This document shows positions 3,149 through 61,636 of a stretch of 64,000 nt of DNA, in pieces. The DNA is from Nautilus pompilius (taxonomy: Eukaryota; Mollusca; Cephalopoda; Nautilida; Nautilidae), in the NCBI GenBank assembly GCA_018389105.1, contig JACATO010000980.1:930001-994000 (forward strand). Direction: 5' to 3'. Position numbers and translations under genes: made by a program. The notes beneath the pieces are model-generated. The model did no database searches. It saw only the letters and a list, made by a program, of their open reading frames with translations, and had not been told where the DNA came from. Positions within the stretch are counted from its first letter, which is position 1. The number at the start of each line of letters is the position of its first letter.

Positions 3149-3191
<43 letters not shown>

Positions 3192-5299: not shown

Positions 5300-5447
5300 T
5301 GCATTTAGATATGCATGGTGTGCATCAAATGGACCTTGCATTTAGATATGCATGGTGTGCATCAAATGGACCTTGCATTTAGATATGCATGGTGTGCATC
5401 AAATGGACCTTGCATTTAGATATGCATGGTGTGCATCAAATGGACCT
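5300..5447. repeat. 37-bp tandem repeat, four identical copies
   Basis: Four head-to-tail copies of a 37-bp unit containing ATATGCATGGTGTGCATC. I see no difference between copies. The repeat lies in the probable first intron of the minus-strand gene, about 140 bp upstream of its exon with the start codon. Identity between copies implies recent expansion. Confidence 0.95.
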
Positions 5448-5979
5448 TGAAGAAAAAAAATTCTAAAATTTCCAGATGGGATAGCAAAAACGATATTCTT
5501 CAGCACACACAATATATAGCTATTATAAGCTGATGAAAGTGTTTAAAATAGTCAACCGTGTTTACATCAAAATCAAATTAAAGAGAATCTCACAACATAA
5601 AATATAAACATTGGTAGTGTTTTGTGCGCAGATGTTTCTAACCCTCTCCATAAAAGGTAGCATTTAAATAATTTTAAAAAAAACAACGATTTATTAAATG
5701 TTACACCTGAAAACAAAATAAACTAATAATTTTTTTTTTTTTAAATGAATCACATAATGTTTGTTGTGGTGATAAAATCTTCTGCTAATAACAGAAAACG
5801 AAAATAATATTAGCTGCTGCTGCTTCTTCTTTTTTTCAGTATTAGATTATTCGCATTCAGAGGATGTGGGTCACAACATTATTTATTATTAATTTCACTC
5901 TTTAGAAATATATAGGCATGAATTAACACTAGATTCATCGGGTTAATGCAACACGTCTTTATAAATGAAATAAAGCAAT

Positions 5980-6480
5980 TTCCTGCCAGCAAAGCCGAGG
6001 CTACGAAATGAACTGCTGCCCGGATCCGGACTTACTTATTACCTACCTACACCCGACATCCCGAGTCGAATAGCCACAAAAGACTGATATCTGTAGCAGC
6101 GAGAATACCCGTGGAGTTATTCGCGTGATATAGATTGTTGGATCTGTAATACTTATAAGTCCCCACAGGCGGGAAGCTGTCAGCTACCCGCTAATAACCC
6201 GAATTAGACGAGAACTTTCCTCGCCAATCGAGAAAGGAGAGACGACGACGACGTGTCTGACTGCGAAATGATTTACCCTGGCCCTACCCTACAAGAGACC
6301 CATCTGGGTAAGCAAATTACCTATAGAAAGATAAAGCCTACCTCGATTTCGTCTACATCGTTCTTCTACTTTTTAAGATGACGGAATAATGAACACGCCC
6401 GCCTTCGGGAACTATATAGTCTAAAATGGTTAGCAACCAAAACTAGTGAAAACGATGAAAATGGCGTCTGCATAAATTCC
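5980..6480. promoter_or_regulatory. CpG-rich head-to-head promoter region with first exons
   Basis: This is the most GC- and CpG-rich unique stretch in the left part of the window, in a very AT-rich setting. On the minus strand a probable non-coding first exon ends at 6342 with donor GAG/GTAGGC. Upstream of it are a TATA-like ACTATATAG near 6413 and a YY1-like AAAATGGCGTC near 6468. On the plus strand a donor-like GG/GTAAGC at about 6309 could end MCM10 exon 1. If both are real, the two first exons lie close together and each gene starts inside the other's 5' region. Transcription starts are inferred, not seen. Confidence 0.45.
6342..6420 (-). other. Probable non-coding first exon of the minus-strand gene
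   Basis: A splice donor (GAG/GTAGGC) at 6342 on the minus strand follows CpG-rich sequence and a TATA-like box. The short ATG here meets TAG at once, so the exon would be 5' UTR. The 5' edge is a guess. Confidence 0.35.
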
Positions 6481-6893
6481 GTGTTGGTTTTGGGGTTGCA
6501 TTCAAAGCAACACATTTGTATCTATTGCTAATAAAGCAATGGCTATATGAATATAGTTGATTTTTAATGTTAATAAACATATCTTGCGTTAGTATATATT
6601 GAATTTTTGTAAAATATATGTGCTTTAAAATGCTAGCTCCTTTTTAAAATATGGCGCCAAACAATCTTTTGATATTCACTTCGGGCAGATTCAGATTCCT
6701 TGTCTAAAGGTCTGGTTTTGTTTATGCACTATTAAGGGAGATATGTGCTAGGATATGATTTTAACTTTATCATTTTATTTATTTTGCTCGTTTTTTGTCT
6801 TTCCATGACTTGCTCCGCCAAGAGGTATTTGCTAGTGATAGCAACAGTAGTTATAATGCTCTCGTGTCATCTATATTAAAAAACCCCAAAACT
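6481..6893. other. Unique sequence between promoter and 54-bp array
   Basis: No exon or transposon end was seen here. It contains one more YY1-like ATGGCGCC context near 6650. Confidence 0.4.
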
Positions 6894-9800
6894 CTGTTGG
6901 GCTGTAAACATTAACTAGAGACTGGTCCCTTTAGTACAACTATCAATCTGTTGGGCTGTAAACATTAACTAGAGACTGGTCCCTTTAGTACAACTATCAA
7001 TCTGTTGGGCTGTAAACATTATCTAGAGACTGGTCCATTTAGTACAACTATCAATCTGTTGGGCTGTAAACATTATCTAGAGACTGGTCCCTTTAGTACA
7101 ACTATCAATCTGTTGGGCTGTAAACATTATCTAGAGACTGGTCCGTTTAGTACAACTATCAATCTGTTGGGCTGTAAACATTATCTAGAGACTGGTCCAT
7201 TTAGTACAACTATCAATCTGTTGGGCTGTAAACATTATCTAGAGACTGGTCCGTTTAGTACAACTATCAATCTGTTGGGCTGTAAACATTATCTAGAGAC
7301 TGGTCCATTTAGTACAACTATCAGTCTGTTGGGCTGTAAACATTATCTAGAGACTGGTCCGTTTAGTATAACTATCAATCTGTTGGGCTGTAAACATTAT
7401 CTAGAGACTGGTCCGTTTAGTACAACTATCAGTCTGTTGGGCTGTAAACATTATCTAGAGACTGGTCCGTTTAGTATAACTATCAATGTTGGGCTGTAAA
7501 CATTATCTAGAGACTGGTCCCTTTAGTACAACTATCAATCTGTTGGGCTGTAAACATTATCTAGAGACTGGTCCGTTTAGTATAACTATCAATCTGTTGG
7601 GCTGTAAACATTATCTAGAGACTGGTCCGTTTAGTACAACTATCAATCTGTTGGGCTGTAAACATTATCTAGAGACTGGTCCATTTAGTACAACTATCAA
7701 TCTGTTGGGCTGTAAACATTATCTAGAGACTGGTCCCTTTAGTACAACTATCAATCTGTTGGGCTGTAAACATTATCTAGAGACTGGTCCCTTTAGTACA
7801 ACTATCAATCTGTTGGGCTGTAAACATTATCTAGAGACTGGTCCGTTTAGTATAACTATCAATCTGTTGGGCTGTAAACATTATCTAGAGACTGGTCCGT
7901 TTAGTACAACTATCAATCTGTTGGGCTGTAAACATTATCTAGAGACTGGTCCATTTAGTACAACTATCAATCTGTTGGGCTGTAAACATTATCTAGAGAC
8001 TGGTCCGTTTAGTACAACTATCAATCTGTTGGGCTGTAAACATTATCTAGAGACTGGTCCGTTTAGTACAACTATCAATCTGTTGGGCTGTAAACATTAT
8101 CTAGAGACTGGTCCCTTTAGTACAACTATCAATCTGTTGGGCTGTAAACATTATCTAGAGACTGGTCCCTTTAGTACAACTATCAATCTGTTGGGCTGTA
8201 AACATTATCTAGAGACTGGTCCCTTTAGTACAACTATCAATCTGTTGGGCTGTAAACATTATCTAGAGACTGGTCCGTTTAGTACAACTATCAGTCTGTT
8301 GGGCTGTAAACATTATCTAGAGACTGGTCCGTTTAGTACAACTATCAATCTGTTGGGCTGTAAACATTATCTAGAGACTGGTCCCTTTAGTACAACTATC
8401 AATCTGTTGGGCTGTAAACATTATCTAGAGACTGGTCCCTTTAGTACAACTATCAATCTGTTGGGCTGTAAACATTATCTAGAGACTGGTCCCTTTAGTA
8501 CAACTATCAATCTGTTGGGCTGTAAACATTATCTAGAGACTGGTCCATTTAGTACAACTATCAATCTGTTGGGCTGTAAACATTATCTAGAGACTGGTCC
8601 CTTTAGTACAACTATCAGTCTGTTGGGCTGTAAACATTATCTAGAGACTGGTCCATTTAGTATAACTATCAATCTGTTGGGCTGTAAACATTATCTAGAG
8701 ACTGGTCCCTTTAGTACAACTATCAATCTGTTGGGCTGTAAACATTATCTAGAGACTGGTCCCTTTAGTACAACTATCAGTCTGTTGGGCTGTAAACATT
8801 ATCTAGAGACTGGTCCGTTTAGTATAACTATCAATCTGTTGGGCTGTAAACATTATCTAGAGACTGGTCCGTTTAGTACAACTATCAGTCTGTTGGGCTG
8901 TAAACATTATCTAGAGACTGGTCCATTTAGTACAACTATCAATCTGTTGGGCTGTAAACATTATCTAGAGACTGGTCCTTTAGTACAACTATCAATCTGT
9001 TGGGCTGTAAACATTATCTAGAGACTGGTCCCTTTAGTACAACTATCAATCTGTTGGGCTGTAAACATTATCTAGAGACTGGTCCGTTTAGTATAACTAT
9101 CAATCTGTTGGGCTGTAAACATTATCTAGAGACTGGTCCGTTTAGTACAACTATCAATCTGTTGGGCTGTAAACATTATCTAGAGACTGGTCCATTTAGT
9201 ACAACTATCAATCTGTTGGGCTGTAAACATATCTAGAGACTGGTCCGTTTAGTACAACTATCAATCTGTTGGGCTGTAAACATTATCTAGAGACTGGTCC
9301 GTTTAGTACAACTATCAATCTGTTGGGCTGTAAACATTATCTAGAGACTGGTCCCTTTAGTACAACTATCAATCTGTTGGGCTGTAAACATTATCTAGAG
9401 ACTGGTCCCTTTAGTACAACTATCAATCTGTTGGGCTGTAAACATTATCTAGAGACTGGTCCCTTTAGTACAACTATCAATCTGTTGGGCTGTAAACATT
9501 ATCTAGAGACTGGTCCGTTTAGTACAACTATCAGTCTGTTGGGCTGTAAACATTATCTAGAGACTGGTCCGTTTAGTACAACTATCAATCTGTTGGGCTG
9601 TAAACATTATCTAGAGACTGGTCCCTTTAGTACAACTATCAATCTGTTGGGCTGTAAACATTATCTAGAGACTGGTCCCTTTAGTACAACTATCAATCTG
9701 TTGGGCTGTAAACATTATCTAGAGACTGGTCCCTTAGTACAACTATCAATCTGTTGGGCTGTAAACATTATCTAGAGACTGGTCCATTTAGTACAACTAT

Positions 9801-10069
9801 CAATCTGTTGGGCTGTAAACATTATCTAGGACTGGTCCCTTAGTACAACTATCAGTCTGTTGGGCTGTAAACATTATCTAGAGACTGGTCCATTTAGTAC
9901 AACTATCAATCTGTTGGGCTGTAAACATTATCTAGAGACTGGTCCCGTTTAGTACAACTATCAGTCTGTTGGGCTGTAAACATTATCTAGAGACTGGTCC
10001 ATTTAGTACAACTATCATCTGTTGGGCTGTAAACATTATCTAGAGACTGGTCCATTTAGTACAACTATC
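6894..10069. repeat. 54-bp minisatellite array, 59 copies
   Basis: Counting each unit by eye gives 59 copies of a 54-bp unit that begins CTGTTGGGCTGTAAACATTA. Variation is confined to a few sites: C, A or G in GGTCCNTTTAG; TACAAC or TATAAC; CAAT or CAGT at the unit end. The first two units read TTAACTAG where the rest read TTATCTAG. A few units carry 1-2 base indels, mostly near the right end. Because 54 is a multiple of 3, long open frames with an 18-residue repeat arise by chance; they have no coding context. The array ends 72 bp before the first recognised MCM10 exon. Near-identity of units points to recent turnover by unequal exchange. Confidence 0.98.
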
Positions 10070-10141
10070 GGGTCTGAAATAATTTAAGTGGGTGGTTTAT
10101 TATGCATTGTGTTTCCAACATTTTTTCTTATTTGTTTACAG

Positions 10142-10181
10142 TTAACTCAAGTTACAGGTAAAACAAGCAGTGAAATGGCTG
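10142..10181 (+). CDS. MCM10: MCM10 exon 1 of those found (start codon)
   Basis: Acceptor TTGTTTACAG, 33 nt of leader, then ATG GCT G at 10175-10181 before GTAAGT. The trailing G joins AT of the next exon to give MADDRCDLE, which fits the family N-terminus. Because it has an acceptor, a non-coding exon must lie upstream, probably across the 54-bp array near 6309. AAATGG is a good start context. Confidence 0.75.
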
Positions 10182-19100: not shown

Positions 19101-22100
19101 TCCTTAGGCTACAAAATGTATTTTTACTGAAAGATCAGCCTGTTGATCAATGTAAAGAAATTTTATTCTAAAACTAAAGCAATGTATTTTGACTACACTA
19201 ATGATCTGAATGAGAGTTGCTGGAAAGAAGGATATGATTGCAAGGATGGTAGGAATTTGTTCAGTGTATTGAAATTTTGGTCAAAGAATGGTTCATGGTT
19301 GAAGCTTGAAATGAAAAGTGGGTGTGTGCGTGAGCTTGTTGAACTAATTACTAATGATTTCCCTGTATTTCAGGAAAATGTAAGAACAAAAAAGATTCAG
19401 TCTGCCTTTATTAAAGACATATCTGATCCCAATGTAATTATACCTCATAAAATATTCTATCATGTGAATAGGTTGTCAAGAAAATTAGTCCACTAATCCC
19501 AGTCAGTTCATGTGGACAGTTCAGATTTGATGTTGAAGTTTAATTTTAAATTCTAACTTTATTTTCAGAAACTTCAAGACATCAGACATTTATGTTTATT
19601 TGTTTTGTTGCTTTCAAATTATTGTAAGAAATATACTTTTAAAAATAAATGAGTATCATAGAAATAGAGAAATTTTTCCAAATTAAAATTGTTACTTCAT
19701 CTGCATAATGAAGTGTATAACTACAAAAGTGAATGTAACACATGTAACAGAAGTATGTAACAGTATTATGTTTGTTACACTTTTATCAGGACTTAGAGAA
19801 TAATTTTAGTCTTGTTGTTCAATTTGATACTGGGATTGTGATGCTAGTTCATGTCTTGCTTTGATGATATGGTGATGTGAATATTTCACAGATTTTTTTG
19901 TCACTTACAACTGTCGTGTATTGCACCTTAATGCTTTTTAATGGCCATGCTGTCTGTCTTATATAGAATTTGAGTTTTTGAAATAAAGTCAGATGATTGT
20001 AAACCATCTGAAACTATGGTTGTAAAAATTCTACATTTAGTTTTTTTTCATGGTAGTGTTCGAGGTAGACCCTTTGGGGACCACTTTTCATGGAATGTCC
20101 CAAAAGTCTTGTTTGTCAGTCCACTTAAGAAATGCACATAAATCTTAAAAATATTTTTCCTTCTTGGATGTCAGCATTTTTATGCTGTTGTTTATTCTAT
20201 TTTATTAGGATATCTCACTTAACTAGATTATGTATTAGTTGTGAATTCTTATTTTCCTGGTTTTGCAGCGTTTCAGACTTTGGCTGGCTGTACATTTAAT
20301 GTTCATGTTTAATATTTCCAGATGACAGATGTGATCTGGAGACTTTAGCATCTTTTTTGGAGGAGGACTTAGAAAATGAGGTGAAGCAAGCAGAGACTGG
20401 TAAAGAAAATCCTTGTTACAGATCACGTAAGAGCATTAAAATCGTTTCTTTATTTTCCTTACTATTTTACTATGATCTTACATTGCTTTCCAATTTCTAT
20501 TTAATACTAAAACGTAAATCTGTCAAATAGATGGTGAATTAACAACCTGCTTCTGCCTCAGAAAAACAAAAACAAAAACTACAAATCTAAATTATTGCAT
20601 AGTCTCTCAAAGGGGTGGAAAAACAAAATTTTTGCTGTTTACTCTGTGTAACTTAAGGATTTGTTTAAAGATGTCCATTCAGACTAAAGAGAAATAAATT
20701 TACTTTAATGATCAGAAAGGTTTCTCTTAGCATATTTCTTTGTTTCATGTTTTTAGACATTTTTACAATTTTATTAATTACTATCAGATGTGAAACTATT
20801 GACTCACCCATTAAGCTCAAGAACTTAAGCAGTAGACTTAATTAGGTAAGATCTTTTTAAATCTAAAGTTAAATGAGTCAATTCTTAAGTTATAATAATC
20901 ATTGCTAAAAATGTTTTTAGATAACTGCTTTTATAGCCATAGATTTTTAAGTGATTATGTACATACATCTAAAATGTAATCTACAACCAAAATGTGCAGA
21001 TATTCTTACAAAGTGAGACTCAAGAATAGAATTTTGTCAATAGTCAGAAAATATTCTAAGTAGGACAGGTGTTTCCACTTTATTCGGTTGTTTACATACT
21101 CGTGCCCAAAATTTGTCTGCTTCATGGCTGAAATTAATTTATAAAAATGGAATGTGGTGTTATTTAAAGCTTGACTGCTGCACAACAGTGAATAATGGAA
21201 ATTTGATAAATTCAAATATGAATTTAAAAAGAGTTAGAAACTAATTATGATTTATTTCTTACTATAAAAGTATTGCTTGAAAAAAGACAAAGAACATAAG
21301 CATAGAAGTTTTCTTTCCATTTCAATATAAATACTGTGCATAATTTTATGCTAAGCTTACTGTATTAGATTCTTGTGAAGCTCGGCCTGATACCATTATA
21401 CTCGTGCTATTTTGCAAATGTTTTACAGCTAAACTAAGGGGGGTGGGTAATTATTTTTTTCTGAGACTGCAATATTATTAATTTATATCTGTATAGTTGG
21501 TAGGAAAATTTTCCATTTAATGCAAATTTGTAGAATAATAGGGATTGTTATGTATGTTCATCTACTAATGAATATTATAAACAAAAGCATCTGATTGAAG
21601 GTGTAATAAAATTGGATTTATTTACTGGAATTTATCATGACAGATATATTCAAGTTTGAAAAGCCATGGGTTTTTTTTCTTTTTAGAACTAACGATTAAT
21701 TTAAACACTTTCTCTGGTCTTTGAAGTTTATATGATGGGTACATGTGCTAATAACATTTTTCAGTTGCATCACAAGTAATTTTTTTAAAATACACATTGC
21801 TCATAAATAAATTGACAGCATTGTGTTGCAGATGGAGAGAAGTTAGACAAGATGTTTGCTTTGGTGAATGAAGAAAATGAAAAAGGCACTAATGTGAAAG
21901 TTGATTGTAATAAAGCAATGGCAGTACCTTCAGTGAATGTCTTAAACAACCCAGACTGTGACCTTCAAGGTAAGTTAGCCAGATGGCAAGAAAGAACCTT
22001 TGTCTGTGTGGTCCGTGCTACTTTAGTGCAATGTGATGTTCAGATTAGATGATAATGTTGCAGTAGCTCATGACTTTAGATACAATAGAAAGAATATCTG

Positions 22101-28100: not shown

Positions 28101-31100
28101 TCTAAGCTAAAAATTTGCTTGTTGGTATATTCAATGGTCAAAAGTCTTGCTGAAGCAAGATTTCTACACACCACACTTGCATATAAGCAGGAAAATGCAG
28201 TAAAACTAATTTTTAACAATAGGAAGTATGAAGGAAAAAAAGACTAGAGAGATAATTGCATTAAAACCAAGATTGCTAATAATCAAATTGCAAATACAGC
28301 ATTAGAATAGATGTGCAACTTCCAGATATTTTTCTTCAGTGTATATAAACATAACAAACATTTTCATTATTTCTTAGTAAATAGGTGATTAATTTTATAA
28401 TTAGCATAGACTAGAAATGTGTCTATTTTTTATTTTTAAAGGTGAAAAGCCTCAGCTGAGTAAACAAGGAGAAAAAATTAAAAAATTAATCAAAAAAGAA
28501 AAAAGAATTGCTCATGTACCAACATATGAAATGCAGAAAAATATTCAACAAAAGTGTAAGTATTTTAACATATACAGGCTTACCTCCCTTACTTTTCAGC
28601 AGACATTTGCCTTGTTTTGTGCACTCTTATTTCTTTCATATGGAATGTTTTTCAAGAAAAATACATTCTTAAATATTCATTTTAAAAAAAAGTTAAAGTT
28701 TTTATATTGTCTTTTGCAGTTTAACGATGCTTTAGACAAAAATAATGGAGATTGGTGGTAAATATCACGGTTAATCAACATTTACTGTTGTTGAATAAGA
28801 CAGCAGGACAACAGGTTTCTGGATGGAAGCATTCATCACTTAATAGCATTAACAGCTGGACTGCTTGAATCTCTAGAATTTTTCAGCTACTGGCACTACA
28901 AACTGAAAATATTTATTGTTTCTGGGAAATGCTTTTTGCCTTGCTTGGTATTTAGAATCACAGTATACACCTTTCTTCTGCTTGCACAGTGAATCAGTGT
29001 AGAGCACACTTAATACTATGTGGGGAAAATTGGAACGCATTCAGAAGTGTGCTCACCAATTTTGTAGAGACGGTTTACACGTGGAGAAAGCGGTTGGTAG
29101 TGGATCATCAGGGTTCAATTCCACTTTCACTCCAATGCCTCTCAAGCCATCTGATAATTTGAAGTTTCATTTTCAGTCAATTTTACCTTTGGTTTCTCCA
29201 TAGGAGCTATTGGCATGGGGGATACAGGCTGAAGTCACAACAAGGCTCATCAATGGCTAGGACAGTGTACTCTACCTTTTTTGGCCCCATTGTGCCTTGC
29301 TCACCTGCTTAGCTTCACAGTGCTTATTGCACATGAGTGAGACCCAACTTGCATTTCTTAAAACTGATGTTAAAAATTAAAATATACATGAATGAAACCA
29401 TGTATTCTGGGCCTGTGCAAAGAAGCAAAGGGTATAGATGGTTTGTTCCTTAGGTCTGGCTAAGCATCTAATAGAAAAGTTCTCTTCCATATAATTGAAA
29501 AGAAAAATTCTCAAATTGTTGTTTTAGTGATGCATGGTCCAGAGCACAACAGAGAAATAGCAGCCAGATCTGTTCAGATACAAACCAAAAATGATTCAGT
29601 CACGAGGGATTCATTCTTTGGAATAAGAATCAAGTAAGGATTTTTATTTTGTGCCAAAATAATTTTCAAAGTGTGTATTAGCACATTTTTCAAATATTCA
29701 GATGTTTGTTTGTTTTCTTTTTTAATTCTCTCTACTCTACATATATTATGTTACTAGGTTATTGGGTTTGTTTACATAGTGGCCTTTTTATGTAACGTTT
29801 TAGTAGTTGTGATACTCACTCTGTCACTGCTTGCATCTGTGGACTGTGAAAAATATTTAGTGAAAAGATTAAAATTATTGGCTGCATCATTCTTCATTTT
29901 ACACATTTTAAACTTTTTAACTGTTTTAGGAATCCTTTAATATCTATGGACATGATGAAACTGAAGATGGAAGGAAGAAAGATGGTAAAATTGTCCAGTC
30001 TTCATGTGAAAAAGAAAACAACTGACTTGGCTGGAGATTGGGTCACCATGGGCATAATTGTTCACAAAGGAGATCCCAGGCTGTCTTCTAGTGTAAGTTC
30101 TCTCTATTTGCTTGTAGTTTAGATTATTTTTTTTAATTGTCTAGAAATTTAAGGGTTGATGAAAAACAGTCCCACTTGCTTCTCATAAAAATATCACATA
30201 CAAGCCATCTACAAGGTAAAGAAATATATATTGCTATTTATGAAACTGGTTCAGGCTGTTGCTGTTAAAGTCGATTGATGGTGATTTGCTCCATTTACTT
30301 TTAATTCCTTTGCTAAAGAAATGTTTTCTATCATCAAACCTTATAGGTAGGTTTCCTTAAAGACTTTGGGTTCTGATGAGCCTGTTCCCAAACATTTAGA
30401 GGAATGTGTTTCAGATAGTTTTCCATATGTTCATCTGAAAAGTTCTGGTTGTGATGTGAACATCTATTGATGGAAATCTACACTGTGTACAAAAAAAGAA
30501 GTATGAACAGGAAGTTTGAAGAATCTTTTCCAATATTAGAATTGTTTTTCTTTTATAAATTATGCACCCATTAGTTAATGTGTTTGTTTTGAAAGATTAT
30601 TCTCATTAAATGTGTGTGTGTGTCAAAAAGACAGGATGTGTTAGTGGTGGAAAGTGCTGTCACATGAAAGTGTACTAAAGAAAGCTGCCAACAGTGGTTA
30701 CACAGAATCACATTTAATAGCCATTTGTTGTTTAAATAAATATATGATTTTACAGTTTTCATTTCTGGGTTGTAGCAATAGGATGGAGTTAGTTTAACAC
30801 TAATTTTTGTTTGTTTTTAGGGAAAAACATTCTGTATCTGGAAGTTGTGTGACTTGCTGGACTGTGATCAGTGTGTGGCATTCTTTTTGTTTGGAGAGGT
30901 TTATAAGAAACATTGGAAGAATAATGTTGGAACAGTTGTTGGCATTCTGAATCCTAGCATAATGGATTCCTCTGAAAAGGTTGGTGTTTAGCCTTGGATT
31001 ATATTTATTGGGCTGCCGAGAATAATGTCTTTGCTACTGACTTTTCATAATAAGAGAAAACAAATATAAAATTATTTTGGTGGCAGTGCAATCTTTTGAT

Positions 31101-34100
31101 TAGTGCATAGAGAATCTTTCTCTGGTTTTAATCACTGAATTTTAAAGAAATGAGGAATAAGTAAATGGACCAAAAATAATAGTAAGTTGTTATGTAATCA
31201 GCCAACCTGTTATATAACACAACTTTTATGTATGAGACGTTACTGTTTTGCATTTTTTGTCATCTTGAATGAGGAACTATAATATTATAGACAATTTATT
31301 TGTAAATTCTATCAACCCAAAAGGGAGCACCTACCATCATGGATATGTTGTTAGTGTGGTTAAGCAATTTTAACAAGGTCTGATATGAAAATGTTCTTAA
31401 TATTTTATCAAGAGGACTTAATGGGTTTTATTAGCTTATGCTCAAATCAGACTCTGTTGTTATTAACTTTAACAGGTAATTTTACTGAACAGCAAGATTG
31501 ATTTCTTACTAAAAGTCTTGTTTTAAAAGTTTAATTCAGAGATAGCCTTCACAATTAATCATCCCCAGAAGTTGATGGTTATTGGGCAGTCCAGAGATCT
31601 GGGAACCTGCCAGGGAAAGAAAAAAAATGGCAACCCCTGCACCAACATTATAAACAGGTGACTGAATTAATTGTGTAGAGATTTATTTTAGAAAAATTGA
31701 TGAATCAGTCAGTTTTAAAAATGCTGTGTATTATACACAGATGTGTCAACAAAAAATTTCAAAGGTCTTATTTAAAAGTAGCACATGTTGATTTAATAGT
31801 TTAGATGTTTTCTTTAATTAAAATAGAAACCAGGAAACAAAATTGTATCACTTCAGTATTTGCTGTGGTAATTTTCATAATTATCATTGGTCAGTTATTG
31901 AAGTTCAGCTGTAAAGGGATTATCCTTTAAACTGGCTGCTAGTAGTCTACTGTGCAAATACTGCTGTGACTCAGTCAAGTTTTGCATCTATATCTGTTTA
32001 AAATTAATTTTAGTTCACAAGCACTTTTAGACAAGTGACATTGTTATATGTGCAATACTTTAATAAAACAACAAGTTACTTATTATTATATCTGGATATT
32101 TTTTCTTGTAGAAATAGAGACCAGAAAATTGAGAGGAGGAAAAGCGGGTTAACTATAATAGCAACAACATGTTTAAACAGAGATTTATTATTATATTAGA
32201 AAAAAAACTGCAAAATGGATATATATTTTCAAGTTAAAGGATACTTTGTTAATGAGTAGATCTATTTGAGAAAACTTTCAGCAAGACGTTTTTCTTAAAC
32301 TTTGTTTTCTTGCATGGCTGGCATGGATGCTCATATGGATTTTAGGTAAAAGTGAATATTTCAGGAACTGAAAGAAATATAATTGGTTTTTTTTTTTAAA
32401 AAATGCCTTTGAAATCATCTAGACATAATTTGTAATTTTGACTTTAATGTTTTGAGCAAAAATTAAAATTGCTTGTTGATCGTCTCCCTTTGATTGATCA
32501 CAGCTTAAGTGCATTCAAAAGTACGTTTTTCTTTCCTATGACCAAGACACCAGTGTGAGTACTGTACATACCATGTGAAGGCTGCCTACCAGAAATCCTA
32601 TGCAAAAAGGACTGAACTGAACACAGGGTAACCATTTTTTCTTGTCGATAGTATACTGTTTGTTTTTTCTTGTTAAAAAAAAAATTATTTAACAATGATC
32701 AGTATTGATGGCTGGAGCTTTTGATGTTTTCTGAATCTGTAAAAACGTTGTCAGTTTCTTAGATTTGTAGTTTTATTGGTAACCTTCCCATGTGTTGTTT
32801 GTTAGTTAGGTTAAAAACTACTGCAGTTCACTAGTAAGAGAACAGTTACTGGTGAAAAGAAGTACAGCATAAACTGACATGTTTTTAAGTTAGCTCCTAT
32901 CTAGGGTAGACACTTTAGAATCTGAACTGCCGTTGATATTTTTACTTTAGTTCAGTGTTCTGTTTAGCCATAAAATATTTTTATGATAACACCTAAGTAG
33001 CAATTCACATCTGAGAATCAAAAAAAAAGAAGGGTATTCCAGGGAAAACATTACTTTCACTTTTGCAGATAGAAGTTGAAGACTGAGGTCCTGTCTCTGT
33101 CCGTGATGGATTTCACAGGGCATGGTTAATGCTTTGTAGTCAGAACTTGTTGGAAAAGCATTTAATATATGACAGAGTGCTGAAACATTGACATTTCTGA
33201 ATTACTAACCAAATAGCAGTAATATATCAGAGTTATGCCCATTCAAGAGATCCACCACCTAAAATACAAAGCAATCTCTTAGGGCTTTGTTGACACATAA
33301 AAATACTTTTTTAATATTATATATATATATATATAATGGTTTGGTTGTGGAAGAATAGTTCAGGAAATTCTTGGTTTGTTAAGTCCTTTATTAAAAGAAT
33401 TACAACTTTTTAAAACTTGTTAGGAAAGTTATTGGTGCTGTGTTCATAATATCTTTTACCATCACATATCTATTAAGTAGTTGTCAGAGTTCCAGCTAGC
33501 CCTTTTTAGCATGGCGCCACGCCATGCCTCTGGTCTACAGCGCCATGCCTCTTTGTACAATGACATGCCCCAAATGGTGCAAAACACAAAGCCCGATTTT
33601 CCTTTTTGTACAGGTATACAACCGCCGCATGCAGAACTTTTTGAGCGTCCCCTGGCGGGAATTTTCCAGCCGCTCTGCGGAGTTGTAACTTGTGCGCGTG
33701 CGCATTATACACCATTTAGTTTACGCTTCGAAGCATAGCACGAGTACACAAAAGACCTAACAAAAGAGCGGCAGTCTTAAGAGTATTTTTCTTCAACGTT
33801 TTAACATACAATCTAGCCTAATTCAAGGTCGTCAATTAAAGCTATTGCATTTCATTATATTATGAGAACTTGTAAATGTATATATACATGCATTGACTTT
33901 GTTGCAAATAAATGTGAACTTGTAGGTTTGTATGATTGCATAAGTTAGTAATACTTCACTTAACACCTACATCATACTAGTATTAAACTGTTATTTATCA
34001 AATTTGTCTTGTCATTAATGCAAATAAATGTGCCCACAATACCATGCTTCCGCACCGTGACTGCACGCGATGTGCCCTGTTTTATAATATTTACCATGCC

Positions 34101-37064: not shown

Positions 37065-40000
37065 TAGTACTTTACATTTAACTGATGTTAAGAAAGGCTA
37101 GAGAATGGTTGTTTTTAGAAATCTTGAGGTATGTATTGATGGTGGTTTGAATAAATGAGATTTTGAGAAATAAAATCAGTCCTGCATGTGGGCTTAAACA
37201 AAGGAAGTGAGTGACAAGCTTGTTGCTTAGGTAGATTCTTTAATACATACTCACTTCCTTCTCTTTGCTAGTATTGGTGCTAAACCAAAGCGAGATCAGC
37301 TGACACTGAAGAATCTCCAAAAACATCAAGTTCAAAGCAGAAACCAAGTAACAGTGCTCAATCTGCATAACTTGGAACCAGAATACACAGAGAGCAAGCT
37401 GCAGAAGCTGAGTGAAACCAAGGAGATCTTGTAAGTGCAAGCAAGCATAATCTTAGCCATTTTGTGCATTGAGAAATAATTTGGGATGGGAGGAAAGTTA
37501 CAGTAACACCCTCTGAGAAATACTTTCTCAGCAAAGGAAGGGGGTTACTGAGCAAACAGGTTCTTCTGATAGTTCAATCAGGTTTTCAGTTTTTCTCTGC
37601 TGCCTTGCCATTCTCATGTGATAGAGAGACAAAACAGAGAGATTGCTGTGTGGATGATATGCGTGCGTCCATAACATGGGAATTTAAAAAAACAAAAAAG
37701 TTTTAGGTAGAGAATAAATACTCTTTTAATTGAACAGTTTTCAAATTGAAAGCTTTTCTTAAAATAAATTTTCTCTTTTTTTTTCAAATTTGTTTAGAAG
37801 CTTACCCAGTATTCAAAAATTTAAGGTATTTTAAAAATAGGCAAGTATTGAAAGAGACTCTTCGCAGAATAATGGACTAAATGTTTGCATTACTTCTTTT
37901 TAGCATGATATTGCTTTAAATCTTAACATTTGTTTGTATTTTTTGTTGTTTTCAAGAATTGTAAATGGAATCTGAATATATTTTTTCTGAAGTAATAGCT
38001 TATTAAATCTTGTGAGGCTGGCTTATAAAAAATGTACTCTATAATCTGAATATTTATGTGTGCAAAACTAAAAATGTGTTGATAAGTTTTTTAAATATTC
38101 TTATTGCCAACCAGTTTAGGAGGAATGTGCAGATCTCTGAAGACTTATTTTATTACCAAATTATTTTTTACCTTGCAGCACTGACCTTTTGATGGTGCCC
38201 TCTGTTGGGTCATCAAACTTGGTGAAACATTTGATACTGGAAGAAGAAAAAAATGGTATTTTTTTTTTTTTTTTAAAAACAAAAACTAAAAGAAAAGCAA
38301 GCAAACAGATAAACACTAAAAACTTAGAAAAAATGTGGCTTAAAGTAGATGAGGCTGTTTGCAAAGTCTGGCTTATTCTGTTGAATCCTATGTAGATTGA
38401 CTCAGCACAGCTACTCTCTGTCCAGCATCCAAATGCACTCATGGCTGCCTTGCTGGCTGTCAGTATAGGGGTTGGCATTAGCAAATGATAAATTGCCTTT
38501 ATTTTGGTAATTTTGTTTTCATTTTGATATAAGTAATGTATTTTCATAATATCTACAGAGAAACAAATATAATGTGTCACATCTACTTAGAGATCTTTAC
38601 CTAACATCTGCAGTTGTAGGATGGCTCTATTTTGTCTTTTTTGTTTCTTCATTTATAATGTAATGCTGTACCTGACTGTTATTTTATTTAAACTATATAA
38701 TACTGTTGTTGAGACAGCATTGCATAGAAGAACTCAGCAGCCTCAGTATTCAAATAGACAAAATTTCAGGGATCAGTTCTTGGAATTGCACAACTTTTAA
38801 CTTGCACTAATTTTTTGTTAATTTTGTTTAATAGCCTCGGGTATTGAAATTAAGAAACATTGACTTAAATTTGCCATTGACAACTAAATCTTTCCTACAC
38901 CAAGTTAGTTTTCCAGAGACTTCTAAGGTTTGTTGAAGTATAAATTATTATAGGAATATTTCATCTAATTCCCACTAAGGCATTTGGGGCATTTGTTATT
39001 TAAGGCACTAGCTGCCAAAGGTAAAATTTTGCCATTTACAACCTTGTTTTACAGTTCGCTTTAGTGATGCTAAAGAGTTAATCCAGTCAGTCTCAGCAAA
39101 GGACTTGCTGAAGCAACACAAAAAAAAAATGGAAGAAAAACAAAGGAAATTTCAAGATAAAAAAAAAATGATTGGTTCACCACAGTTGCCTAAGCTGGGA
39201 AGAGGGGTTCTGCTTGGACATGAAGTTATTTTGGATGACTCTTCAGCATCAAAATTGGTGCAGCAAAGTAATGGTTCACAAAACTTGGATTATAGCATTG
39301 CCAAGGTAAAGATCCTTTTTTGTTGATTTTTAATTGTAGAAAGAATTAGATTAAATTTATGCATTTGATATAAAAATTTGCAAAAGTAAAGATTCTTTAT
39401 TCCAGTACAATGTAGAGGGAAGTTTCAGAATCATGATTTGAGAAATCATCACTTCTAGAAACTATGTGAGTGCAGAGAAGTATTTGAGAGAGAGAAAAAC
39501 TAAGATATGCTCTCTTCATAGTTGCCTTAGTTACCATTGTTTAAATTACCTGTAATTTTGTCTTATTTTTTTTCTATATATTTTCTTTTTTTTTTTATCT
39601 CTTACCATTTAACAAAAATTTACAGCAATGTCAGATAATATTTCCTGAGTTAAAACTGATAAATGTACAAATTTCTTAGAAGACAAGAAGGAATAATCAA
39701 TTACTCAAACCCTGGATAGAGGTGGCCCAGTGGCTATACTATTGGACTGCTGGGGGCTGAATGCCCAAGTTTGATTCCTGGTCAGCTCAGTCTCGCACAC
39801 CCCTTGCATTGTTACTTCTCACTCTTCTTTGCGAGCTGGTCAGGTGGGTCTTTTGTGGGCATTCTGTTAGGGATTTTTTGGCTGAAGTTGGAAATGACGG
39901 GCCTCTTGTTGTGCATTGCATCATTCAGTAGCAGATAAATGCAGGACCACACTTGTTTAACAGACTTGTCTGTCTCGAGTGTAGATAGATTATCTCAGAG

Positions 40001-61000: not shown

Positions 61001-61636
61001 AATTGTGGAAAAGTGCCATTCCACCCTGACTGCAGTTTGTGAAGAAGTTTTTAAGGGCTGTGATAATCAAGAGGATTTCAAATAGCTTTAAACTCGACCT
61101 ATGATTTGTTTGTAGCTCAGGAACCCCAGACATTCTGGCCAGCCTCCATCCATCCCTTTTATGTGATGATGTCATGCAGTGTGCTGACCAGCCCCCCCCC
61201 CTTCCAAGCTACAAATATCTGTTAGCTGAGGTTACAGACCCGCACTTGATGTTTTTTTTTCTTTCCTCTGCAGCTGGCTCAGTGGAAAAGGACGAGCCAA
61301 CAGCACCTCCAAAGAAGAAGCAGAAATCTAGATATCTTGGCAATTTAGATTTGAACAGCAAAGATGTGCAGCAGTTAATCAAAATGAAATCTTCTCATGA
61401 TGGTTTAATCAGACAGGTGAGCATCATTTTGGGATGGGTTCTTCCACAAATATGCACAACATCAGTACTCGCTTAAAAGACAAGAATGTTTCTCACACGG
61501 TCTTTATTTTGTATTTTGATAGATGGAATCTGAAAAACAGGAAACTTACTTCAGTGAACTCGAAAAAAAAGAAAAATATGAGGAGAAGATGACATCTATT
61601 ATGGAAGTTACTTGCACTTTATATTCCTGTAAACAA
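10142..61636 (+). CDS. MCM10: MCM10, DNA replication initiation factor (18 exons, C-terminus outside window)
   Basis: MCM10 binds DNA, the CMG helicase and polymerase alpha-primase at replication origins in the nucleus. Eighteen exons join in phase to 752 residues; human MCM10, from memory, has about 875. Residues 1-18 read MADDRCDLETLASFLEED, like the vertebrate N-terminus. Residues 84-105 form a predicted coiled coil. The OB-fold covers about 280-385, with GKTFCIWKLCDL and NVGTVVGILNP. The zinc motif is C389, C399, C411 and H414 (CX9CX11CX2H), within LGTCQGKKKNGNPC and CEYCTYH. PKLGRGVL and SKIQSKGGILKKDPNA match conserved C-terminal blocks. The visible part stops at EVTCTLYSCKQ, where the C-terminal zinc region begins. 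I see no stop or frame break in any exon, so the gene appears functional. Transposons fill its introns but not its exons. Confidence 0.96.
10182..10640. other. Start of MCM10 intron 1, no feature seen
   Basis: AT-rich intron sequence between the first exon and the LINE. Nothing recognised. Confidence 0.5.
10640..14150 (-). mobile_element. Decayed L1/Tx1-like LINE
   Basis: Minus-strand pieces occur in LINE order. An endonuclease block reads VMGDFNCIPNHNLD near 13500. The reverse transcriptase reads LYKKGDRTCLGNWRPISLVN within 12268-12717, and its active-site box reads ITQYANDTTIVLKN near 12150, where the family has YADD. Several stops and frame changes separate them, so the copy is dead. The edges are approximate because no target duplication or tail was seen. 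The WRPISLLN style and SGAKINK-like sequence after the box suggest the L1/Tx1 group; other endonuclease-type LINEs are possible. It lies in MCM10 intron 1 in antisense. Confidence 0.75.
14172..15373. mobile_element. TIR DNA transposon, non-autonomous, family unknown
   Basis: The ends form a short inverted repeat: CATACTTGCCAACTTTTCAA on the left and CAGACTTGCCAACTCTCCCA on the right read inward. A 6-bp direct repeat, CATGAT, flanks both ends (14166-14171 and 15374-15379). The 1.2-kb interior has no recognisable transposase. Confidence 0.6.
15380..16452. other. Intron 1 stretch with no recognised feature
   Basis: Short open frames occur on both strands, but none resembles a known protein. It may be old repeat sequence. 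Confidence 0.35.
16453..17714 (+). mobile_element. Decayed DNA transposon with long inverted repeats
   Basis: About 100 bp at the left end (TGCTGACTAAGATTTGACAC and on) matches, inverted and diverged, the right end (TGCTGACTTATATCTGAGAC and on); both share TTTTGCCTATCAC. Outer ends read TA/CACTGGCC and AATTGTG/TA. Inside, on the plus strand, decayed protein reads FDGPQIRKLMREQH, VVKNFLGNKKAENLG, VHFLNSHLDKFPENLGDVSD and YQGRWDTHMMANYCWSIKRD. I recall this block from uncharacterised transposon-like proteins of many invertebrates, but cannot name the superfamily. The CACT start suggests the CMC/Chapaev group; that is a guess. At 1.26 kb it is an internally shortened copy. Confidence 0.65.
17715..18730. 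other. Intron 1 stretch with no recognised feature
   Basis: AT-rich. A less AT-rich island at about 18380-18470 has no exon-like reading supported by homology. Confidence 0.35.
18730..19560 (+). pseudogene. Decayed transposon-like coding fragment, unclassified
   Basis: The 117-residue frame at 19143-19496 reads YTNDLNESCWKEGYDCKDGR followed by NLFSVLKFWSKNG. Just upstream, broken frames contain KTPQSLGKAM, SPRK-like and coiled basic sequence. The order (basic coiled part, SLGKA, then a Cys-spaced block) resembles uncharacterised transposon proteins found in invertebrates, but I cannot name the family. No ends were found. It is not an MCM10 exon: the phases do not fit, and exon 1 joins exon 2 directly. 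Confidence 0.35.
20322..20426 (+). CDS. MCM10: MCM10 exon 2
   Basis: Residues 3-37. Acceptor AATATTTCCAG, donor GTAAGA. Encodes DRCDLETLASFLEEDLENEV, similar to the vertebrate N-terminal acidic leucine-rich segment. Intron 1 before it is 10.1 kb. Confidence 0.9.
20427..21831. other. MCM10 intron 2, no further feature seen
   Basis: AT-rich intron; short open frames on the minus strand have no support. Confidence 0.5.
21832..21969 (+). CDS. MCM10: MCM10 exon 3
   Basis: Residues 38-83. Acceptor TTGTGTTGCAG, donor GTAAGT. Encodes HGEKLDKMFALVNEENEKG; acidic, weakly conserved linker. Confidence 0.85.
22575..22694 (+). CDS. MCM10: MCM10 exon 4 (coiled coil)
   Basis: Residues 84-123. Encodes ELRMMMNRMKELERKLEEKQ, a heptad-rich coiled coil like the one used for self-association in vertebrate MCM10. 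Donor GTAAAA. A minus-strand open frame overlaps it and is a shadow. Confidence 0.9.
22979..23152 (+). CDS. MCM10: MCM10 exon 5
   Basis: Residues 124-181. Acceptor TTTTCTTTAAG. Serine-rich and acidic, ending SESDSDWEDMEG. The donor GTGGTA is weak, but the phase joins exon 6 correctly. Confidence 0.8.
24014..25834 (-). pseudogene. Broken hAT transposase with BED finger
   Basis: The order on the minus strand is: BED zinc finger (25834 down: YGFTQIEDKGIMKPQCVVCL, LKKYLDNLHPH); RNase H-like core with QLDESTDVSSISQLIVYVHY and SVDGAPAMLGHVSGFSALL; HALNTRLFRELCKD and EVRWLSRGNVLNQVL; and the C-terminal dimerisation block LLPFATTYLCEQGFSTLMNI. A TAG stop interrupts the core at about 25060. Frame changes fall near 25620, 24800 and 24400. 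The full product would have been roughly 600 residues, usual for the family. Confidence 0.93.
25897..26178. mobile_element. 282-bp mariner-like MITE inside the hAT element
   Basis: Long inverted repeats of about 35 bp begin TGAAGGACGTTCAAGTCAAA on the left and CGAGGGACGTTCAAATCAAA on the right, flanked by TA on both sides. There is no coding capacity. It interrupts the 5' non-coding part of the hAT, so it is younger than that insertion. Confidence 0.85.
27340..28441. other. Right part of MCM10 intron 5
   Basis: Minus-strand fragments such as NPAADAWSEILARLSADYLP hint at more old element sequence, possibly the 5' part of the LINE, but I cannot identify it. No ends seen. Confidence 0.3.
28442..28555 (+). 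CDS. MCM10: MCM10 exon 6
   Basis: Residues 182-219, lysine-rich (GEKIKKLIKKEKRIAH), ending before GTAAGT. Lies after the 5.3-kb intron 5 that holds a LINE and a hAT element. Confidence 0.85.
29000..29300 (+). repeat. Possible tRNA-derived SINE fragment
   Basis: GGGTTCAATTCCAC at about 29109 looks like a Pol III box B, and AGCGGTTGGTAGTGG about 25 bp upstream is a weak box A. There is no clear tail or target duplication. Confidence 0.3.
29528..29633 (+). CDS. MCM10: MCM10 exon 7
   Basis: Residues 220-255. Acceptor TTGTTTTAG, donor GTAAGG. Ends DSFFGIRIK, matching the FSGLRLRRP-type block that precedes the OB-fold domain in vertebrates. Confidence 0.88.
29930..30092 (+). CDS. MCM10: MCM10 exon 8 (start of OB-fold domain)
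   Basis: Residues 256-309. Encodes MEGRKMVKLSSLH and DWVTMGIIVHKGD, matching the family's MTGRKLIRLSQI and DWVTFGVILKK. Donor GTAAGT. Confidence 0.95.
30821..30979 (+). CDS. MCM10: MCM10 exon 9 (OB-fold core)
   Basis: Residues 310-362. Encodes GKTFCIWKLCDLLDCDQCVA, FFLFGEVYKKHWK and VGTVVGILNP, the best conserved part of the protein. Acceptor TTGTTTTTAG, donor GTTGGT. Confidence 0.98.
31530..31657 (+). CDS. MCM10: MCM10 exon 10 (end of OB-fold, first zinc ligands)
   Basis: Residues 363-404. Encodes EIAFTINHPQKLMVIGQSRD and the ligands C389 and C399. The in-phase acceptor is TTGTTTTAAAAG ending at 31529. A competing AG ten bases on would meet a stop codon. Donor GTGACT. Confidence 0.92.
31658..33484. 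other. MCM10 introns 10 and 11 flanks
   Basis: Apart from exon 11 at 32547-32627 and an (AT)n run at about 33319-33337, I see only AT-rich intron sequence. Confidence 0.45.
32547..32627 (+). CDS. MCM10: MCM10 exon 11 (last zinc ligands)
   Basis: Residues 405-431. Encodes HQCEYCTYHVKAAYQKSYAK with C411 and H414 completing the zinc motif. The in-phase acceptor is CTATGACCAAG, with a short pyrimidine tract before it. Donor GTAACC. Confidence 0.92.
33485..34126. mobile_element. 642-bp TIR element (hAT-like MITE), CpG-richer than its host intron
   Basis: The ends read CAGAGTTCCAGCTAG on the left and CAGTGTTACAGCTAG on the right, read inward. A 5-bp direct repeat, GTTGT, flanks both ends; hAT elements normally make 8 bp, so the class is uncertain. 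The first 250 bp hold CpG-rich sequence with repeated GCGCCATGCC words. There is no transposase. Short opposite open frames in it are not genes. Confidence 0.65.
34297..34389 (+). CDS. MCM10: MCM10 exon 12
   Basis: Residues 432-462. Acceptor CTGGTTCCAG. Encodes GFTGVTPKVFEKKLLPKGG, which aligns with the FSGGRIPKKFARRG stretch of vertebrates. Donor GTAAGT. Confidence 0.9.
34390..37271. other. MCM10 intron 12, no coding feature recognised
   Basis: Contains a (GT)n run at 36206-36228 and an (AT)n run at 37039-37065. The open frames near 36099-36533 overlap each other in different frames and lack homology. Confidence 0.45.
37272..37430 (+). CDS. MCM10: MCM10 exon 13
   Basis: Residues 463-515. 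Acceptor CTTTGCTAG, donor GTAAGT. Encodes KRDQLTLKNLQKHQVQ; a weakly conserved linker after the zinc domain. Confidence 0.88.
38179..38255 (+). CDS. MCM10: MCM10 exon 14
   Basis: Residues 516-541. Encodes TDLLMVPSVGSSNLVKHLI, matching ELMDLPTCGARNLKQHL of vertebrates. Acceptor ACCTTGCAG, donor GTATTT. Confidence 0.9.
39055..39305 (+). CDS. MCM10: MCM10 exon 15
   Basis: Residues 542-625, the longest exon. Encodes SVSAKDLLKQHKKKMEEKQ and LPKLGRGVLLGHEVILDDSS, matching the SISASALLKQQKQRM and PKLGRGVLEGDDV blocks. Donor GTAAAG. Confidence 0.95.
39710..40140 (+). repeat. tRNA-derived SINE
   Basis: A tRNA-like head carries box A at 39724 (GGCCCAGTGGC) and box B at 39769 (GTTTGATTCCTG), about 45 bp apart. 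A non-tRNA body follows, with ACACGACAACTACTACAGCC and a 3' part near 40080-40140. There is no coding sequence. The exact 3' end and target duplication were not found. It lies in sense in MCM10 intron 15. I recall similar bodies from mollusc SINEs; this is memory, not proof. Confidence 0.7.
41416..43229 (-). pseudogene. Nearly complete but frameshifted hAT transposase
   Basis: It starts at MATSVTKKRKYSEEY (43229). The BED finger has KPQCVLCFKV and LKHHLQTIHPQ. The core has FAIQLDESTDVSSCAQLLVL and CTDGAPAMLGSKSGFQKRVK, then HCMI, ALNSRLFQNLCRDMDSEHEA and VRWLSKGNVVNRV. The C-terminal dimerisation block has LRLLLPFSTTYLCESGFSTL and SRNRLDVDPDMRCAL. I count four frame changes and no other stop: in a run of seven C near 42898, near 42390, near 42085 and near 41835. 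All main family motifs are present, which suggests a fairly recent death. Confidence 0.93.
43571..43596. repeat. Perfect 12-bp stem hairpin at hAT end
   Basis: GCCATGGCCCCC and GGGGGCCATGGC are separated by TT. The same word recurs twice nearby. It lies just inside the right terminal repeat of the hAT and may be a subterminal transposase site. Confidence 0.85.
43930..44053 (+). CDS. MCM10: MCM10 exon 16
   Basis: Residues 626-666. Encodes KIAISKIQSKGGILKKDPNA, matching the LAAITKLRAKGQVL block. Acceptor TTATTGTGTAG, donor GTTAGT. It lies 313 bp after the end of a hAT element. Confidence 0.93.
44390..46071. mobile_element. Fold-back mariner element
   Basis: Both ends carry CGAGGTCTGTCCAAAAAGAA read inward and are flanked by TA. 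The plus strand from about 44654 encodes mariner transposase pieces: EEQRVCVKFC, TGDKMWVYGYN and WMLHHDNAPAHASLL, ending just after YSPDL, before the expected third catalytic Asp. From about 45497 to 46071 the sequence turns round and repeats the first half inverted (minus-strand frame 45834-45520: LTVREVSEEVGMCKSLCHMM). So the element is a large imperfect palindrome with a loop of about 400 bp. The left arm also has a 75-bp tandem duplication just inside the end. It is non-functional. Confidence 0.9.
46291..46886. mobile_element. 596-bp pogo/Tigger-type MITE
   Basis: Ends CAGTCGACCCTCGCGTAATC and CAGTTGTCCCCCGGTATTCG, read inward, are flanked by TA target sites. CAGTNGNCCC ends are typical of pogo/Tigger elements. 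GC-rich ends surround an AT-rich middle, and no transposase is encoded. Confidence 0.85.
46889..48178. other. Intron 16 stretch with no recognised feature
   Basis: A minus-strand open frame at 47976-47638 (112 codons) has no recognisable motif and no coding context. Confidence 0.35.
48181..49382 (-). mobile_element. Decayed mariner element, 1.2 kb
   Basis: Inverted ends TGAGGTCTGATCAAAA and CAAGGTCTGGTCAAAA are flanked by TA. The transposase on the minus strand starts at 49209 (MTAVKEQRVCIKLCVKLGKT), with the helix-turn-helix part SCSKTFEWFSRFKDGQNS, then GDEIWVYGYD (first catalytic Asp), EGVVHHEFVPY and WMLHHDIQHSP (second). The third Asp region is missing. Several frame changes are present. 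It is related to the fold-back mariner at 44390-46071 but is a separate family. Confidence 0.88.
49385..54880. other. Intron 16 stretch with no recognised gene
   Basis: Contains (GT)n at about 49486-49507 and (GATT)n at about 51680-51702. The many short open frames lack homology and coding context. Some of this is probably repeat sequence too old for me to identify. Confidence 0.35.
54960..56310 (+). pseudogene. Possible old hAT-like transposase remains
   Basis: Around 55030-55100 broken frames read ITECMRIKAFGLATDGSN-like sequence, similar to the ATDGSND block of some hAT transposases. Further pieces to 56310 are not identifiable. No ends were seen. Confidence 0.25.
56850..58380 (+). mobile_element. 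Decayed hAT transposase copy (GTF2IRD2-like)
   Basis: The order on the plus strand is: CASCC-type BED remnant near 56910; SSIFMCIRTGKNQVAKRLQD and EPYTDGKFF (57035-57150); VFSMVLDESADINDLPCLVI near 57260; FTDGVLAMIGKDWEVKQLL near 57460; HVFVKFYCIVHQESLCMKNA near 57530; and LKSEFSERFTTFWTSV near 58050. This is the order seen in GTF2IRD2/ZBED-type hAT transposases. Many stops and frame changes make it much older than the two hATs in introns 5 and 15. Ends were not found. Confidence 0.75.
58756..59009. mobile_element. 254-bp hAT MITE
   Basis: CAGGGTT starts it and AACCCTG ends it. The flanking 8-bp sequences GTGTTGAC (58748-58755) and GTGTTAGC (59010-59017) match at six of eight positions, as expected for an old target duplication. 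The interior is built from repeated TTACCA words, and no protein is encoded. Confidence 0.75.
59590..60440 (-). mobile_element. Decayed CR1/L2-like LINE, reverse transcriptase part
   Basis: The minus strand reads, in order, QSAYRQFYRTETALHQVKQN near 60360, FDTVDHCGHLQSKIGLSGTV and CGVPQRSCFGSFFFVIYVSK (60282-60049), YTDDTQLC near 60015 (YADD box with one change), TRQLAKINFSKHQ near 59880, then a diverged tail to about 59590. This is the standard layout of CR1/L2/Jockey-group reverse transcriptase. It is 5' truncated and broken, in antisense in MCM10 intron 16. Confidence 0.8.
60441..61273. other. End of intron 16
   Basis: Two minus-strand open frames (60751-60476 and 61175-60786) may be worn LINE 5' sequence, but I cannot identify them. 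A poly-C run lies near 61190. Confidence 0.35.
61274..61416 (+). CDS. MCM10: MCM10 exon 17
   Basis: Residues 667-714. Acceptor TTTCCTCTGCAG. Encodes PPKKKQKSRYLGNLDLNSKD and LIKMKSSHDGLIRQ, matching ARKKRREQLAYLESEEFQKI and KAKSKHTGILKEA. Basic KKKQK could serve nuclear import. Follows the 17.2-kb intron 16. Confidence 0.93.
61523..61636 (+). CDS. MCM10: MCM10 exon 18 (last in window)
   Basis: Residues 715-752. Encodes ETYFSELEKKEKYEEKMTSI and EVTCTLYSCKQ, where the paired cysteines open the C-terminal zinc region. Ends in phase 0 at GTAAGC. The remaining exons, about 100 codons by comparison with vertebrates, were not found before 64000. Confidence 0.93.

Follow-up and report, generated by a model that had tools for sequence, protein, structure and literature searches.

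The MCM10 gene and the place of the array

The stretch of DNA analysed here, referred to as the window, is 64,000 nucleotides long and contains a predicted MCM10 gene with a minisatellite array of 54-bp units at its 5' end. The features of the locus are collected in Table 1.

Table 1. Coordinates of the array, its subdivisions and the predicted parts of MCM10 (positions within the window)
Feature	Positions	Strand	Remarks
CpG-rich stretch	5901..6500		CpG o/e 1.04-1.30 vs window mean 0.28
Candidate exon 1 5' splice site GTAAGC	6308..6313	+	98.8th percentile of window GT sites, approximate weight matrix
Minisatellite array	6893..10069	+	59 head-to-tail 54-bp units, last cut off at 50 bp
First two units	6895..7002	+	Sole units with A at unit position 20 (edge variant)
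18-unit block, first copy	7649..8620	+	972 bp, no indel
18-unit block, second copy	8891..9857	+	967 bp; 0 substitutions, 5 one-base deletions vs first copy
Predicted MCM10 exon 2	10142..10181	+	Start codon 10175, donor 10182; splice scores and in-frame join
Start of predicted MCM10 exon 3	20322..20441	+	In-frame join; coordinates give the part read, not the full exon
Stop-free stretch, part of MCM10 OB-fold	29850..30119	+	PF22379 E 9.7e-12
Stop-free stretch, part of MCM10 OB-fold	30821..30988	+	PF22379 E 3.1e-19; PDB 3h15/3ebe E 1.7e-15
Stop-free stretch, zinc-finger match (CEYCTYHV)	32542..32628	+	PF09329 E 5.9e-05, below cut-off (23.2 of 28.8 bits)
Stop-free stretch, Mcm10 CCCH-type zinc motif family	39012..39323	+	PF24863 E 2.4e-06, 28 bits vs cut-off 26.8
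Stop-free stretch, Mcm10 CCCH-type zinc motif family	61523..61678	+	PF24863 E 2.9e-08

Pfam matches were obtained for four of the seven stop-free stretches picked by eye as MCM10 exons, and no Pfam match was found for those at 20300, 22499 and 61105. An OB-fold, a zinc finger and a CCCH-type zinc motif region follow one another in order on one strand, with the zinc-finger match (PF09329) lying below its cut-off, and for the stretch at 30821..30988 an alignment to solved MCM10 structures was obtained (PDB chains 3h15 and 3ebe, E 1.7e-15). The ATGGCTG of predicted exon 2 joins the exon at 20322 in frame, reading MADDRCDLETLASFLEED. Among the AG sites of the window, the predicted acceptor of exon 2 (10142) ranks at the 96th percentile, and among the GT sites its predicted donor (10182) ranks at the 99.8th, as scored with approximate splice-site weight matrices. 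The Pfam matches, the PDB chains 3h15/3ebe and the in-frame join of exons 2 and 3 bear out the identity given to the gene in the initial annotation and confirm, at the level of sequence, an animal MCM10 gene downstream of the array.

Within the MCM10 gene region, positions 44402-45542 look like the remains of a mariner-type transposon, in which a 75-bp repeat of 2.0 copies (92% matches, TRF) is followed by a transposase fragment at 45237-45542 (PF01359, E 1.7e-07). Six long stop-free stretches on the + strand (19131-19493, 24469-24846, 24875-25261, 41723-42154, 54282-54590 and 56307-56699) gave no Pfam matches at E 0.001.

The CpG-rich stretch at 5901-6500 probably corresponds to the promoter and first exon. 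A CpG-rich gene start in a window with depleted bulk CpG suggests an animal with a methylated genome, and nothing further. The array lies between this stretch and the exon that carries the start codon (ATG at 10175), just where it had been placed at the outset. The GTAAGC at 6308 is the top-scoring donor between the CpG-rich stretch and the array. If this donor joins the acceptor at 10142, the predicted intron 1 would extend from 6308 to 10141, and the array would make up approximately 83% of it by our own arithmetic. Judging by these predicted splice sites, the array most likely lies within a transcribed intron 1 of MCM10, in which case it would be transcribed and then removed along with that intron. 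Against this placement, the donor at 6308 is itself predicted, and the AG sites at 6710 and 6689, which precede the array, score slightly above the predicted acceptor at 10142 (4.1 and 3.1 vs 3.0), so that further 5' exons are possible.

Units, variants and unit order

As initially annotated, the array comprises 59 copies of a 54-bp unit; TRF reports a period of 54 bp, 59.0 copies and 97% matches at 6893-10069 on the + strand, which moves the start by one base. When the array was split at a fixed unit start, 51 of the 59 units were exactly 54 bp long, and the mean pairwise identity of these full-length units is 97.8%. There are 17 distinct unit sequences, the cut-off last unit included, and the commonest is present 17 times. 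The XbaI site TCTAGA occurs 56 times inside the array. A head-to-tail unit of 54 bp in 59 copies falls within the range that defines a minisatellite (units of roughly 7-100 bp).

With at most three mismatches allowed, a 19-bp core of the unit is found 59 times in the window, every time inside the array and on the + strand, compared with a mean of 0.02 in window shuffles. No degenerate copies of the unit were found elsewhere in the 64-kb window by pattern search, blastn gave nothing beyond a chance-level 12-bp match, and an nhmmer search of the window with the first array unit returned no match.

Mobile elements such as Helitron-like ones can carry inner tandem repeats. The array could accordingly be imagined as the inner minisatellite of an element of this kind, or as a copy of a genome-wide satellite, although we regard such an origin as improbable. 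Inverted and direct matches between the two flanks (70, 150 and 300 bp) do not go beyond those in shuffles; no inverted repeat was found within the left flank, and the right flank contains one 13-nt palindrome. Searched by blastn against the rest of the window, the flanks and the unit gave nothing significant (best E 0.078). Exact matches of a unit 31-mer and 19-mer in viral and prokaryote collections also numbered 0, which carries little weight for an animal repeat.

Two other tandem repeats occur upstream in the window. A second minisatellite, of 37 bp and 4.1 copies (100% matches, TRF), is found at 5300-5449, directly upstream of the CpG-rich stretch, and does not match the 54-bp unit by blastn. 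The other is a TTA microsatellite with 18 copies, at 3151-3203.

All 51 full-length units are combinations of alleles at four of the 54 unit positions, which agrees with the earlier observation that each unit varies at only a few sites. The most variable of these sites follows GGTCC and has C in 24 units, G in 22 and A in 13, where three of the 24 C units have a deletion there or at an adjacent base. The site in AGTA[C/T]AAC has T in seven units, a site near the unit end has G in nine, and unit position 20 has A in two of the 59 (Table 1). Each substitution allele is present in at least two of the 59 units and none is private to a single unit; a C in two units at alignment column 37 is a product of gap placing and not a private allele. 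The haplotype counts include every allele combination for two variable sites separated by 17 bp. This is possibly due to exchange with breakpoints inside units, with recurrent mutation as the alternative.

When the order of the units is compared with itself at an offset of 23 units, 0.53 of positions match, as opposed to 0.18 in shuffles (0/1000 shuffles). Matches are also raised at offsets of 5 units (0.31, p 0.007) and 28 units (0.32, p 0.028), although these two were chosen out of 34 offsets and are weak when taken singly. Neighboring units are not significantly alike (offset 1; 0.24, p 0.13). Repetition at offsets 23 and 5, but not significantly at offset 1, indicates that blocks and not single units were copied. 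The longest repeated run consists of 18 units (972 bp) and recurs 23 units on, whereas unit-order shuffles (1000) reach at most seven units. The second-copy unit at 8945 lacks the variable base and its allele was assumed; omitting this unit gives a run of 16 units. Between the two block copies lie five units without a match. Variant units that are reshuffled by block duplication or exchange are characteristic of minisatellites, and the repeated 18-unit run, which 0/1000 shuffles reach, is of this nature.

Together, these results fit an array that grew recently through multi-unit block duplication, as other minisatellites do, and the array looks like an ordinary, recently grown minisatellite of a well-known kind. 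It is hypothesized that a 54-bp stretch became tandem and founded the array, which would then have grown by the copying of multi-unit blocks, either through unequal exchange or through replication-linked block duplication. In the process, a few old variants would have been reshuffled and spread across the array, with new substitutions yet to appear. The initial annotation had deduced active turnover from the purity of the array. Past turnover is indeed recorded in the unit order as a block duplication, but ongoing turnover does not follow, as purity speaks for recent growth only.

Small indels and the assembled length

Setting aside the cut-off last unit, eight small indel events are present in 7 of the 59 units, of which seven are losses and one is a gain. 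The loss of a T from TTT is of the same kind in two units. Comparison of the two copies of the 18-unit block shows 0 substitutions and five one-base deletions, all of them carried by the second copy. For three of the eight indels, in the units at 9214, 9699 and 9806, the loss of a base from a homopolymer run is certain, another three have an ambiguous ancestral unit so that a run is perhaps involved, and two lie outside runs. Enrichment of indels in base runs, which make up 22 of the 54 unit bases, is not significant even for the most favorable count (6 of 8, p 0.055). The probability that five of five differences would be indels is 0.031, 0.004 or 0.00006 for indel fractions of real mutation of a half, a third or a seventh, respectively, these fractions being assumed values. 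Rather than real mutation, the small indels most likely reflect residual errors in the sequence or the false duplication of a block. Decay at the 3' edge is an alternative reading of the cluster after 8970, but decay should add substitutions as well. Since the five deletions all lie in the second block copy, the count of 59 units needs checking.

It is possible, although in our view doubtful, that the array is real and its assembled length wrong. The block at 8891-9857 would then be a false duplication, a second allele placed in series or a poorly polished 3' part, and the actual allele might count about 36 units (59 minus 23). The deletion-only differences of the second block copy point in this direction, as does the array-wide count of eight indel events in seven units vs 0 private substitutions. 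One study gives deletions as the commonest error of nanopore reads, with mismatches close behind in raw reads (PMC8486125), and false duplications in assemblies are documented in another (PMC9516828). Against a wrong length, raw mismatch rates are not far below deletion rates in the former source (PMC8486125). The absence of substitutions would then imply their removal at a consensus step. A simple false join would also match throughout, whereas the 18-unit block at an offset of 23 leaves five units unmatched, although a second allele of different structure need not match throughout. Furthermore, the indels could be wrong with the length being right. A note of caution for such arrays is that copy number and small indels may stem from sequencing or assembly and not from biology.

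Function and comparison with known arrays

The array is most likely neutral, with no function beyond the length that it adds. The fold of a two-unit sequence does not surpass that of shuffled sequences (z 0.56, with 139 of 200 as good), and the unit has no G-quadruplex pattern on either strand. An origin from a known RNA or tRNA was considered and rejected: at gathering score, Rfam gave no match in the window, and tRNAs are likewise absent from it.

A coding array was also considered and rejected. Of the six reading frames of the unit, one is open and gives runs of up to 513 codons, but indels interrupt it and the array lies upstream of the start codon, both of which speak against coding. By our own arithmetic, any particular frame would be open in about 4 of 10 random units of 54 bp. 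If the indels are sequence errors, the argument from broken frames becomes weaker.

The heptamer GTAAACA, which we take to be a forkhead-type motif, occurs in 59 of 59 units and 75 times in the window, compared with 14.5 expected. The array might therefore be an intronic regulatory element, in which each unit would contribute one GTAAACA and the number of copies would set the strength of an MCM10 enhancer or silencer. We consider this decidedly improbable, as the 59 copies descend from one unit and represent a single chance event, and the 16 occurrences outside the array are about the expected number for the window. Precedents exist in humans, where two reports state that VNTR genotype can track expression, including a case in the first intron of DPYSL4 (PMC8096271), and that long CACNA1C alleles accompany lower expression in fibroblasts and testis (PMC13131567). 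It is extremely unlikely that the array acts on MCM10 as a young enhancer or silencer with variable copy number. If this were true, replication would alter the length of the very repeat on which the dose of a replication factor depends.

It is very unlikely that the array disturbs or tunes the splicing of intron 1 through weak decoy sites in each unit, among them the pyrimidine tract TCC[C/G/A]TTTAG, home of the most variable position. Such sites do occur. Among 3' sites, the strongest decoys reach 0.2 in 21 units and 1.2 in a single unit, compared with 3.0 at the predicted acceptor (10142). Among 5' sites, the strongest decoy reaches 1.2 in 21 units, compared with 4.1 at the predicted donor 6308 and 6.7 at the predicted donor 10182. 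The decoy values, obtained with an approximate weight matrix, are weak, and sites equal to or better than the best decoy account for about 8% of AG and about 6% of GT sites in the window.

We consider it highly probable that the array is a minisatellite in the predicted intron 1 of MCM10 that grew block-wise and most likely has no function, which is the best joint explanation of the observations. The array would matter more only if its copy number were variable and linked to MCM10 expression. As it stands, it provides a clear, small example of block-wise minisatellite growth beside a core replication gene.

Satellite arrays with higher-order repeats are built from blocks of variant units that recur as a whole. 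The MCM10 array resembles these in that its 18-unit block recurs at an offset of 23 units. It differs in being single, short and located at a gene, with no dispersed family in the window, and in having two 18-unit copies that lie five units apart, where such satellites have several block copies head to tail. A second comparison is the human DPYSL4 VNTR, a tandem array in a first intron, as the MCM10 array most likely is. In that report, the link of the DPYSL4 repeat to expression was tested in many individuals, whereas the MCM10 array is known from one assembly (PMC8096271).

The third comparison is the human 30-bp VNTR of CACNA1C (TRACT), as described in one report (PMC13131567). The gene, unit and species are different, and population, expression and disease data exist for TRACT alone. 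No de novo change was seen in a four-generation pedigree of 23 people, and with such stability in mind, purity alone is no proof of present turnover. Like the MCM10 array, TRACT is a kilobase-long intronic array whose main unit variants differ by one base, and these variants are read there as growth of the repeat tract in the past followed by mutation. CACNA1C offers the example of an array that grew in the past, has unit variants differing by one base and is now stable (PMC13131567).
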